Part shown: positions 20,545 to 62,205 of the stretch, piece by piece
Numbering within the stretch: the stretch's first letter is position 1
Layout: each line of letters opens with the position of its first letter
Source: Acidobacteriota bacterium
Lineage (GTDB): Bacteria; Acidobacteriota; Blastocatellia; Chloracidobacteriales; JADJPF01
Assembly: GCA_016213785.1 (NCBI GenBank)
Contig: JACQZQ010000077.1
Span: forward strand, 1-64,000
Length of the DNA: 64,000 nt
Direction: 5' to 3'
Notes under the pieces: model-generated
Told to the model about the DNA's origin: nothing
Database searches by the model: none
Seen by the model: the letters and a program-made list of their open reading frames with translations, nothing else
Program-made: the position numbers and the translations under genes

Positions 20545-20900
20545 ATTTTTCTCTCCTTTAAGAAAGGGGCTATTACCCAACTATTTCTAGACTTATTTTG
20601 ATTAATTAATTATTAACCATTGTGTTTAACTTAACATATCAATATATAAGTTTTTCACGTAATTTATTTACTTATGTATTTTCAATAGCTTACAAGATTT
20701 ATTTTTCAGATCAATTTTAGATTAGTTAACAAAATACTTAATTTTTACTTTCTTATAGTAATTATCTTCTGGAAATACACCTAGTTAGTCTTGCTATATT
20801 ACTAGGAATTATTCTTAGCTAAATATGGAAAATAAAAGTTCTGGAAAGTTAAAGAAAAAAATTGTCTTGCAAATCAATTTAAAACCCAATTTAGTTTTTT

Positions 20901-20956
20901 CTCTTTTTCTCTTTTTCTCTTTTTCTCTTTTTCTCTTTTTCTCTTTTTCTCTTTTT
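20901..20956. repeat. Tandem repeat, 7 x CTCTTTTT (8 bp), pure pyrimidine strand
   Basis: Seven exact contiguous copies in the intergenic region upstream of the met operon. Confidence 0.95.
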
Positions 20957-21143: not shown

Positions 21144-21161
21144 ACGATCTTAATAATTTAT

Positions 21162-21212
21162 ACGTGGCGATTTAAGGCGACTTGCTCCACATAAAAAACA
21201 GCTAAAGAACCA
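21162..21212 (+). promoter_or_regulatory. SAM-II riboswitch candidate
   Basis: ACGUGGCGAUUUAAGGCGACUUGCUCCACAUAAAAAACAGCUAAAGAACC: P1 GUGG/CCAC, GAUUU, CUUGC and GCUAAA elements in SAM-II order and spacing; upstream of Cys/Met-PLP genes. Confidence 0.8.
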
Positions 21213-21245
21213 TTTGATCTCATCAAATTCCTTTCAATAAAGGAG

Positions 21246-21309: not shown

Positions 21310-21340
21310 GCCATGCAGACTTAAAGGAGACTGCAATGGC
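21310..21340 (+). promoter_or_regulatory. RBS hairpin holding the SD in its loop and the start codon in its stem
   Basis: GCCAUGCAG-acuuAAAGGAGa-CUGCAAUGGC: 9-bp stem with one bulged A; AUG at 21336. Confidence 0.55.
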
Positions 21341-22511
21341 AAATAATTACAAACTTACCAATGAATACTATTCTCTAGATACAGTGGCTCTTCATTCAGG
21401 TACAGAACCAGACCCAACAACAGGTTCTATTCTTACCCCTATTTACCAAACAACTACTTATCGTCAAGAGGCAGTAGGTGTACATAAAGGTTTCACTTAC
21501 AGCCGAGCTAGTAACCCTACAGTTACAGCATTAGAAAAACGTCTAGCCGCTATAGAAGGTGCATCATTTGCTACTTGCTATGCTACAGGATTAGCAGCAA
21601 CTACGGCATTATGTCTAGCAGTACTTAAATCAGGTGATCGTGTGATTGTTTCACAAGCAGTTTATGGTGGAACAGTAAGGTTATTGCGTCAAATATTTTT
21701 TAAGTTTGGCGTAGAAGCAGATTTTGTAGATACATCTAATATAGAAGCGCTTTCTCTAGCTTTAACTCGGCCAACTCGTTTTATCTTTATTGAAACACCA
21801 GCAAATCCTACTCTTAAGCTTACCGACATAGCTTTAGTAGCAGGTCTTGCCCATAAAGTAGGCGCTTTACTAATTGTTGATAACACACTTCTAACGCCTG
21901 TGCTTCAACGGCCTTTTGAGTTTGGAGCCGATATTGTTTTACATTCTACTACTAAATTTATTGAAGGCCATAATGCTACAGTTGGAGGAGCATTAATTAC
22001 TAATGATCCAGAATTACAAGAACTCTTTACTTTAACACGAACTGCAACAGGCGTTATTCAGGCACCTTTCCCTGCTTGGTTAACACTTCAAGGGGTTAAA
22101 ACACTTCCCCTTCGTATGATACGCCATTCAGAAAATGCTCTACAAATTGCTAGATTTCTAGAAAAACATCCAAAAATAAGTAATTTAGCTTATCCTGGCT
22201 TAGAATCCTTTCCTCAATATGAGCTAGCTAAACGTCAACAACGAACTGGTGGAGCACTTATCACATTTGAAGTAGTTGGTGGTGTTAAAGCAGGTATTCA
22301 GCTAATGAACTCTGTACACTTATGTGCTTTAGCTGAAAACTTAGGCTCAGCAGAAACTCTTATTACTCATCCTGTTTCAATGACACATGCTTCAGTTCCA
22401 GTAGAACAGCGAGTTGCAGCAGGTATTACTGATGGTCTAGTAAGATTATCAGTAGGATTAGAGTGCCCAAATGATGTAATTAACGACCTTAAACAAGCCT
22501 TGTGCAAATAA
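21336..22511 (+). CDS. Cys/Met-metabolism PLP enzyme (cystathionine gamma-synthase/lyase-like)
   Basis: YSRASNPTVTALEKRLAAIEG, ATGLAATTAL, LLIVDNTLLTPVLQRPFEFGADIVLHSTTKFIEGHNATVGG (PLP lysine motif). Confidence 0.93.
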   Translation: MANNYKLTNEYYSLDTVALHSGTEPDPTTGSILTPIYQTTTYRQEAVGVHKGFTYSRASNPTVTALEKRLAAIEGASFATCYATGLAATTALCLAVLKSGDRVIVSQAVYGGTVRLLRQIFFKFGVEADFVDTSNIEALSLALTRPTRFIFIETPANPTLKLTDIALVAGLAHKVGALLIVDNTLLTPVLQRPFEFGADIVLHSTTKFIEGHNATVGGALITNDPELQELFTLTRTATGVIQAPFPAWLTLQGVKTLPLRMIRHSENALQIARFLEKHPKISNLAYPGLESFPQYELAKRQQRTGGALITFEVVGGVKAGIQLMNSVHLCALAENLGSAETLITHPVSMTHASVPVEQRVAAGITDGLVRLSVGLECPNDVINDLKQALCK

Positions 22512-22532: not shown

Positions 22533-24494
22533 TTGTTTACAACATCTAGGTTACTTATCTTAAAATTTGGTAGTTCAGTACTGCGTTCAGAAACAGATCT
22601 TCCCCAAGTAGTGCAAGAGATATATCATGTTTGGCGTGGTGGAAATAAGGTTTTAGTAGTAGTTTCAGCATTTGGTAATACAACAGACACGCTTTTACAA
22701 CGAGCTTATAATCTTTGTAAAGAACCTGAACCTATCGCACTAGCAAACTTACTAGCAACCGGAGAAACTACCGCATCCATTTTACTTGGGCTTGCATTAA
22801 ATAAGGCTGGTATTGCAACTAAAACTTTAGACGCTACTCAAGCAGGACTAGTTACTACAGAAAATCCTTTAGACTCAGAACTTATCTCTGCAAATACTGA
22901 ATATATTCAAAAAGAGCTAGAAAATTTTGTTGTTGTTATACCTGGTTTTATTGGTAAAGATAGCAGAGGAAATACTACTCTATTAGGCCGAGGTGGCTCT
23001 GATTTTACAGCAATTTTTCTTAGCCAACAATTAAAGGGGCATTGTATCTTAGTTAAAGATGTTGATGGTCTTTATACTAGCGATCCTGCTCTAGTAGAGT
23101 CTCAAGCATTACGTTTTTCTAAAGTTAAATGGGAAACAGCCTGCGAAATTGGAGGCAAAGTAGTACAATCTAAAGCTGTTCAATTTGCTGCTAGTCAAGG
23201 GCTTTCATTTACAATAAAATCTATAAACTCTAATGAAGGTACAGAAGTAGGCTTAGGCCCAGATCAATTCTTTCCCCTTAAACCTTTAACCTTATCTAAG
23301 GAAAATAAACACATAAAAATCCCTACTTGTTGTGTGCATATTAACCTAGAAAATACTTCTTATAATGATCTTTACAACCCTTCTGTTCCACCAATTTACC
23401 AAACTGCAACTTTTCGCCAAACTTCAGCTACAAAATTTGGGGCTTATGATTACTCTCGTACAGCAAACCCAACTCGTACACTATTAGAAGAACAACTTGC
23501 TCAACTAGAAGGAGGAAGTTATGCAAGTGCCTTTTCTAGCGGTATGGCAGCCTTAACTGCTCTTACAAGATTAGTTAAACCTGGAGAGGAAATAATTGCA
23601 AGTAACGATCTTTATGGAGGAACTGTAAGACTGCTAAATCAATTACTTACACATTATGCTATTGGTATACATTATGTAGATACTAGTAATATTGCAGAAA
23701 TAGCTAAAGCACTTAATCCAAAAACAAAGTTGATCATTGTAGAAACCCCAACAAATCCTTTTCTAAGAATTTGCGATATTAGAGCAATTGCACAGCTAGC
23801 TAAAAATGCTGGTGTATTACTTGCTGTTGATAATTCTATGCTCTCTCCTTGTTTTCAACAGCCTTTAAGACTAGGTGCAGATATAGTAGTACATTCTGCA
23901 ACTAAATTCCTTGGTGGGCATGGTGATTTAATTGCAGGTGCAGTAATTACAAGTAATGCAGAATTAAACCGCAAAATAGCTTTTCAACAAAATGCCGAAG
24001 GGTCAGGTCTTAGCCCTTTTGAATCCTGGCTTTTGATGAGGGGCATTAAAACACTGGCATTAAGAGCAGAAAAACAAAATATATCTGCTAGAAAAGTAGC
24101 AGAATATCTAAATAATCATCCTTTAGTAAAAAAGGTTTATTATCCAGGATTATCTACTCATTCTGGTTATGATATTCATCGCCAACAAGCAACAGGCGAT
24201 GGTGCAGTAATTAGTTTTACTAGTAACAATAAAGACTTTTCTGAACGAATAGTTCAACAAACTAAACTCTTTAGTACTGCTGTAAGTTTTGGTTCTGTTT
24301 ATTCAACAATAAGTTTGCCTTATAATATGTCTCACTTAAGTATTCCCTTAGAGCTTAAAAACCAGCTTGCCCCTCCATCTGACCTAGTACGAATATCTGT
24401 AGGAATTGAAGATGTTGAAGATCTTATGGAAGATTTGGACGAAGCTATTCGTCTAGCACTAGAGGAAGATGCTACACCTTTGCTTGCTCTTTAA
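22533..24494 (+). CDS. Fusion protein: ACT-less aspartokinase domain + Cys/Met-metabolism PLP enzyme
   Basis: N-terminus LILKFGSSV...VVVSAFGNTTDTLL...LLGRGGSDFTAIFLSQQL...VKDVDGLYTSDPALV; C-terminus YDYSRTANPTRTLLEEQLAQLEGG...VDNSMLSPCFQQPLRLGADIVVHSATKFLGGHGD. TTG start with AGGAGG SD. Confidence 0.92.
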   Translation: MFTTSRLLILKFGSSVLRSETDLPQVVQEIYHVWRGGNKVLVVVSAFGNTTDTLLQRAYNLCKEPEPIALANLLATGETTASILLGLALNKAGIATKTLDATQAGLVTTENPLDSELISANTEYIQKELENFVVVIPGFIGKDSRGNTTLLGRGGSDFTAIFLSQQLKGHCILVKDVDGLYTSDPALVESQALRFSKVKWETACEIGGKVVQSKAVQFAASQGLSFTIKSINSNEGTEVGLGPDQFFPLKPLTLSKENKHIKIPTCCVHINLENTSYNDLYNPSVPPIYQTATFRQTSATKFGAYDYSRTANPTRTLLEEQLAQLEGGSYASAFSSGMAALTALTRLVKPGEEIIASNDLYGGTVRLLNQLLTHYAIGIHYVDTSNIAEIAKALNPKTKLIIVETPTNPFLRICDIRAIAQLAKNAGVLLAVDNSMLSPCFQQPLRLGADIVVHSATKFLGGHGDLIAGAVITSNAELNRKIAFQQNAEGSGLSPFESWLLMRGIKTLALRAEKQNISARKVAEYLNNHPLVKKVYYPGLSTHSGYDIHRQQATGDGAVISFTSNNKDFSERIVQQTKLFSTAVSFGSVYSTISLPYNMSHLSIPLELKNQLAPPSDLVRISVGIEDVEDLMEDLDEAIRLALEEDATPLLAL

Positions 24495-24508: not shown

Positions 24509-24597
24509 GGTCGTGTTGTGAAAAAGTTGATACTAGATTTCTATATCCATTTAATAAAAGGCTGCAACTAAATTGCCAACTTTACTGCAACACGACC
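24509..24597. repeat. 89-bp segment bounded by perfect 10-bp inverted repeats GGTCGTGTTG/CAACACGACC
   Basis: Terminal inverted repeats seen directly; no ORF inside; MITE-like. Confidence 0.5.
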
Positions 24598-52130: not shown

Positions 52131-52380
52131 GTTGTCACTTACCTAGTCCTAAAGGACTAGGCTTATTAGGGTAAAAGCTAATAAGTCCACGTGACCAAAC
52201 TAAGCTGTATGTGAAGCTACGTTATTAGAAGAGTTAAAGAACACACCTTGGAATGCGTGCCAGTTCCAAGCGCTGTAACCAGTAAGCTAAACAACTGCAA
52301 GGGGTATAGTGGTAATGCTTATTGGATATACTAACTAATAACTTTGTCGAGGCAGACTTACCCCAGTAATGGGAGATTTG
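52131..52380. ncRNA. Highly structured non-coding region; candidate omega-RNA/HEARO-like relic
   Basis: GTCAC...GTGAC enclosing CCTAGTCC-TAAA-GGACTAGG and CTTATTAG-N8-CTAATAAG; TTGGAA-N10-TTCCAA; CAGTT/AACTG; GGGGTA...TACCCC. No ORF in the region. Confidence 0.45.
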
Positions 52381-61984: not shown

Positions 61985-62205
61985 AGATTCTTACACTCTT
62001 AAGCCCCAAGGGGGCGAAAGAATTGTAGCCAAGGGTGTATAGAAAGAGTTCACAGAAAAAGCCGCAAAGCGGCGAAAGAATAAAAAAATAGCTTAGCATG
62101 TTTATTATGTCGCCCCGCTGGGGCTTGAAGCTAACTAACTGAAAACCCAGTGCTTACGCACTGGGCTACAAATATTTCGCCCCCTTGGGGCTTAAGAATT
62201 AAGAG
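61985..62205. repeat. Cluster of palindromic extragenic repeats
   Basis: AGCCCCAAGGGGGCGAAAGAAT, AAGCCGCAAAGCGGCGAAAGAAT, TTATGTCGCCCCGCTGGGGCTTGAAG (62105-62130), CCCAGTGC-TTAC-GCACTGGG (62146-62165), TTTCGCCCCCTTGGGGCTTAAG. Confidence 0.8.

Follow-up and report, generated by a model that had tools for sequence, protein, structure and literature searches.

In the present study, we describe an open reading frame (ORF) in which an ACT-less aspartokinase (AK) domain is joined in frame to a cystathionine beta-lyase (CBL). It lies in a 64,000-nucleotide stretch of DNA from an acidobacterium (the whole stretch is called the window here). The fusion ORF was confirmed as it is read in the assembly, and, as judged from the sequence, the enzymes for the first step and for a late step of methionine synthesis form a single protein in this one acidobacterial genome. 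We regard the fusion, with good confidence, as the scar of a deletion within a methionine operon under SAM control; the deletion itself, the lateral acquisition of the operon, both enzyme activities and the binding of SAM are what we infer on this reading.

The ORF begins 21 nt past the stop codon of the preceding gene, and a Shine-Dalgarno sequence (AGGAGG) was found about 9 nt upstream of its start codon (Table 1). The Pfam search gave AA_kinase at residues 7-222 with 114 bits and Cys_Met_Meta_PP at residues 269-639 with 458 bits, both far over the cut-off. The first-pass annotation had claimed that an aspartokinase is joined to a Cys/Met PLP enzyme in one ORF of 653 residues, and this was borne out by the ORF and its Pfam domains. 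Furthermore, no stop codon separates the AK and CBL domains in the sequence as assembled, a break which that annotation had named as counter-evidence. In the AlphaFold model of the fusion, the AK part has a confident fold (pLDDT ~95) and the PLP part a mostly confident one (mean pLDDT 81), and the linker at residues ~250-296 is disordered (pLDDT <50).

The PLP part had been described broadly as a cystathionine synthase/lyase-like domain. It is a complete domain and can be refined as CBL-like, because its best NCBIfam model is TIGR01329 (CBL), at 463.5 just under the cut-off of 487.5, and cystathionine lyases head the matches among solved structures, the first of them, by sequence as well as by fold, being the Arabidopsis CBL 1IBJ, to which the PLP domain is 51% identical when the folds are compared. 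The Cys_Met_Meta_PP fold carries the PLP lysine (K458, in HSATKF) and the other PLP-site motifs, which are the same in the Arabidopsis-type enzyme; the window protein differs from the latter by its N-terminal AK. The identity to the separate CBL genes of relatives is 56-65%. Directly after the stop codon of the fusion gene, a 90-nt imperfect inverted repeat (GGTCGTGTTGT...GCAACACGACC) occupies window positions 24509-24597. Since it folds strongly (z -4.9) and has 4 further partial copies elsewhere in the genome (77-88% identity), it resembles a small dispersed element of the MITE type. Two Rfam RNAs were also recognized on the forward strand of the window, the HEARO RNA (RF02033) at 52134-52361 with 117.7 bits and the Acido-Lenti-1 RNA (RF01687) at 62146-62192 with 43.1 bits.

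Table 1. Positions in the window of the fusion gene, its parts and the operon in which it lies
Feature	Position	Strand	Remarks
Candidate SAM-II / SAM_alpha-like riboswitch, operon leader, ~120 nt upstream of CGS	21158..21215	+	Rfam, below gathering score
CGS-like gene (391 aa), opening the operon	21336..22511	+	Cys_Met_Meta_PP, 457 bits
AK-CBL fusion gene	22533..24494	+	653 aa, TTG start
ACT-less aspartokinase domain, residues 1-246	22533..23270	+	Pfam AA_kinase 7-222; alignments
Short linker, residues 247-260	23271..23312	+	Without homology to AK or CBL (alignments); within the disordered stretch of the model
AAGGAA, possible relic RBS of a once separate CBL gene	23298..23303	+	Inferred; ~10 nt before ATA
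ATA (Ile261), aligned with the start codon of the relatives' separate CBL genes (MK.(S/A)T.CV)	23313..23315	+	Alignment
Cystathionine beta-lyase domain, residues 261-653	23313..24491	+	NCBIfam, PDB, alignments

A search of the class with the kinase domain recovered close relatives, at ~47-60% identity, in 14 other genomes among 165. Where the loci were read in detail, the kinase forms one protein of ~570-590 aa with a homoserine dehydrogenase (HSD), preceded by a cystathionine gamma-synthase (CGS) gene and followed by a separate CBL gene; in two of the 14 genomes (G127 and G145) the AK-HSD frame is broken in their assemblies. The ACT-less AK-HSD proteins of Pyrinomonadaceae, Planctomycetota, Brevundimonas, Maricaulis and others (~570-630 aa) are the direct homologues of the AK half of the window protein, which is up to 56-60% identical to the AK halves of AK-HSD proteins. 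In the AK tree, the window AK was placed inside the acidobacterial AK-HSD clade (SH-aLRT 98, and 94 in a second row set). The CGS and CBL of the window likewise nest among the versions of the same genomes (Pyrinomonadaceae); the CGS shares 77% identity with the gene that opens the G027 cluster and falls within that clade. These acidobacterial relatives have the same operon and leader, but they carry the HSD catalytic domains where the window has CBL; the C-terminal HSD domains (PF03447 and PF00742) present in the relatives are absent from the window protein, which is thus not an AK-HSD of the ThrA/MetL type. Because gene order, leader and three enzyme parts are alike, all of this is best read as one ancestral operon from which the HSD has gone in the window. 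The ancestral order would have been riboswitch, CGS, ACT-less AK fused to HSD, and CBL, and the loss of the HSD part together with its stop codon and the CBL start would have left AK running on in frame into the first CBL codons.

The junction agrees with such a history in its details. The AK homology stops near residue 246 and the CBL homology begins at 261, exactly where the separate CBL genes of the relatives have their start codon. The stretch from residue 206 to residue 310 holds a single in-frame ATG, GTG or TTG, namely a GTG at 268, which has no Shine-Dalgarno sequence, and since this is the sole in-frame start, the CBL is probably made solely as part of the fusion. It might be argued that the true locus is CGS - [AK-HSD] - CBL and that about 1 kb was lost in assembly, given that the fusion is known from one genome and one assembly, the genome being in 132 contigs, and that the relatives show exactly the longer arrangement. 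However, the join is in frame, the junction linker is found in neither partner, and the codon at the CBL start is now ATA; such a decayed start codon counts against an assembly gap, because a simple gap between intact genes would keep the codon intact. In addition, no HSD of the AK-HSD clade was found elsewhere in this genome, where the family search gave just two HSD genes, both of other types, on contigs C97 and C6. Taken together, we consider the assembly artefact very unlikely. The C6 HSD groups with the HSDs of the window's own kin and not with AK-HSD, in a tree that was built without the C97 HSD and used for placing the C6 HSD alone. Loss of the HSD part from the operon may have been tolerated because these two other genes remain in the genome, and they would supply the HSD activity.

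With regard to the origin of the operon, it was not found in the 3 other genomes of the window's own family, nor in the searched rest of the order. In the congener G001, different DNA replaces the 3' end of the operon, up to the contig end. Since the cluster was not found in sequenced close kin, lateral acquisition from a Pyrinomonadaceae-like donor, before the HSD was lost, is probably the simplest reading. The GC and third-position GC contents do not mark the operon as foreign, and base composition is neutral on lateral acquisition.

The kinase domain has kept the motifs of the aspartokinase family (KFGSSV, SAF, TGE, GRGGSD, DVDGLYTSDP and GGKV..K). ACT domains gave no Pfam match in the fusion protein, where the kinase ends near 246 and the CBL starts at 261, and the two ACT domains that follow the kinase in ThrA-type and LysC-type enzymes are thus missing; as a positive control, the LysC of the same genome gave ACT_7, ACT_9 and ACT in the same scan. 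The first-pass annotation was therefore right that the fusion is without ACT domains, but the tie which it drew between the fusion and a loss of ACT feedback was not supported, as the AK-HSD relatives are already without ACT domains. Because these relatives lack them too, the ACT loss is, on the sequence comparison, ancestral and older than the fusion, and no product of it.

We also weighed whether the AK is a decaying remnant, so that the protein is in effect just a CBL with an N-terminal passenger. The HSD has been lost, a complete LysC with ACT domains is encoded elsewhere in the genome, and a Lys replaces the usual ATP-site Thr of 'TDVDG' in the window AK. Nevertheless, the same Lys is common to the acidobacterial AK-HSD clade, the AK domain is open over its full length with its main motifs (KFG, SA, TGE, GRGGSD, DVDG and GGKV..K), and it folds confidently in the AlphaFold model. 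Furthermore, the three enzyme parts are stretched to a similar degree in their trees, the terminal branch of the AK (0.59, with 0.25-0.29 for its closest kin) being no more lengthened than those of CGS (0.37 against 0.11-0.28 in kin) and CBL (0.60 against 0.23-0.49). A decaying AK is therefore improbable in our view. Given this similar lengthening of the branches and the retention of the principal AK and PLP motifs, it is likely that both parts of the protein are active. The AK would feed aspartyl phosphate to the aspartate pathway and the CBL would cleave cystathionine to homocysteine, the two being tied by a floppy linker and each acting independently.

A further possibility is that the fusion was selected as a functional device, for example because it keeps the two activities at equal dosage, holds them in one place or lets the pathway entry and the formation of homocysteine influence each other. 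The AK and the CBL share a pathway and an operon, and in genome G506 (L202, 284-3590) the order is CGS, stand-alone AK and CBL, the AK stop overlapping the CBL start by 4 nt, with no HSD between the CGS, AK and CBL genes. On the other hand, the linker is disordered, and because the AK and CBL steps are not consecutive, channelling is not expected and the fusion is read as a deletion scar and not as a channelling device. Of the architecture on which the first-pass annotation had focused, AK with a Cys/Met PLP domain, no second AK-CBL example was found in 165 genomes of the class, in 396 genomes of the phylum or among at least 50 loci of GTDB representative genomes, and we consider the functional device quite improbable. 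The GTDB scan used an alignment of the ACT-less kinase type, and the loci listed (at least 50) include Acidobacteriota, Planctomycetota, Gemmatimonadota, Alpha- and Gammaproteobacteria and Krumholzibacteria; among the matches listed, the readable architectures were AK-HSD or stand-alone kinases of ~256-270 aa, and none was AK-CBL. Among plasmids, the search matched nothing but ordinary aspartokinases and kinases like them; every match was under 60% identity, and those listed were at ~31-35%. The literature search for a fusion of AK to a cystathionine enzyme found nothing relevant in the papers searched. A path to the fusion through a G506-like arrangement is possible, although the window AK nests inside AK-HSD. 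G506 was also considered as an independent case of HSD loss, which was rejected as its AK branches outside the AK-HSD group. Another ORF, of 735 aa, in an acidobacterial MAG (L141, 3767-5974) combines Abhydrolase_1, possibly MetX-like, with a CGS-like PLP domain and adjoins a stand-alone ACT-less aspartokinase.

The deletion reading places the fusion in an operon whose leader resembles a SAM-II riboswitch. The best NCBIfam model for the first gene is the CGS model PRK07811, at a score below the cut-off of that model. Upstream of it, Rfam gave SAM-II at 23.0 bits (E 0.39) against 44 for SAM-II long loop and SAM_alpha at 17 against 36, both below the gathering score. Each of the seven relatives scanned has a match of the same kind, also below gathering, upstream of its CGS gene, and in all seven the leader core (GATTTAAGGCGACTTGCTCCAC...AAAAA.CTGCTAAAG..) is nearly identical and lies in the same place. 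The 10 SAM-II-like pairs are nearly invariant and 97.5% formed, so conserved that they give no covariation support for the pairing. The conserved P1, the pseudoknot and the GCUAAA core upstream of methionine genes correspond to SAM-II (SAM_alpha) riboswitches, with which the leader shares the motif order GATTT...TTGC...GCTAAA and the P1/pseudoknot pairing; it differs from them in its score below Rfam gathering and in its host, an acidobacterium. SAM_alpha control of methionine genes, including hom-metXC, has been described in Alphaproteobacteria (PMC4239095). The SAM-sensing leader proposed in the first-pass annotation has thus been located as a candidate that is conserved with the operon, although below the Rfam threshold. 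A run of TCTTTT-type pyrimidine repeats (window 20895-20955) lies in the intergenic DNA upstream of the operon.

In the previous studies, MetL of E. coli and V. natriegens was described as being without ACT domains and feedback, and metBL as methionine-repressed, in E. coli via MetJ-SAM (PMC12925634). The window operon is like E. coli metBL in that an AK stands in a methionine operon beside CGS, with no working ACT feedback and, as is expected for the window operon, with expression control linked to SAM (PMC12925634); they are unlike in that the partner is HSD and the regulator the MetJ repressor in E. coli, against CBL and a would-be RNA leader here. Control of the operon is accordingly expected at the RNA level, through a SAM-binding leader and not through ACT feedback, and SAM binding there would control the operon as MetJ-SAM controls metBL. 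The suggestion that a SAM leader replaces ACT feedback is therefore plausible and fits metBL, but it would be a trait of the ancestral operon and not of the fusion.

As for the route to methionine, the searches of the window's genome and of the tested AK-HSD carriers revealed no known homoserine acyltransferase. Despite their CGS and CBL genes, MetA (PF04204) gave no convincing match in G000, G027, G066, G061, G157 and G161, and MetX (TIGR01392) none in G000, G027 and G066; a MetX-like match on contig C112 was rejected, as its 31.9 bits come from only ~60 model residues and the protein resembles a different alpha/beta hydrolase. The window's genome, G003, G027 and G157 each gave a clear homoserine kinase (ThrB), and the matches in G066, G061 and G161 were weak or partial. 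Because the genome and its AK-HSD-carrying relatives are without recognisable MetA or MetX, our guess is that the CGS substrate is O-phosphohomoserine, as in plants. That the protein is a bifunctional AK/CBL in a plant-like route controlled by a SAM riboswitch, with CGS using O-phosphohomoserine, and that such an architecture is previously undescribed, is a doubtful proposal as a whole. The apparent absence of MetA and MetX makes the substrate of CGS a directly testable question.

Overall, the fusion suggests that a multidomain biosynthetic enzyme can swap partners through an intra-operon deletion; relatives still display the donor arrangement. The ACT-less AK-HSD family is widely spread in methionine clusters, with SAM-II-like leaders in some lineages. 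It would be a naturally occurring counterpart of E. coli metBL, and it may serve as a source of aspartokinases that are expected to be feedback-free.
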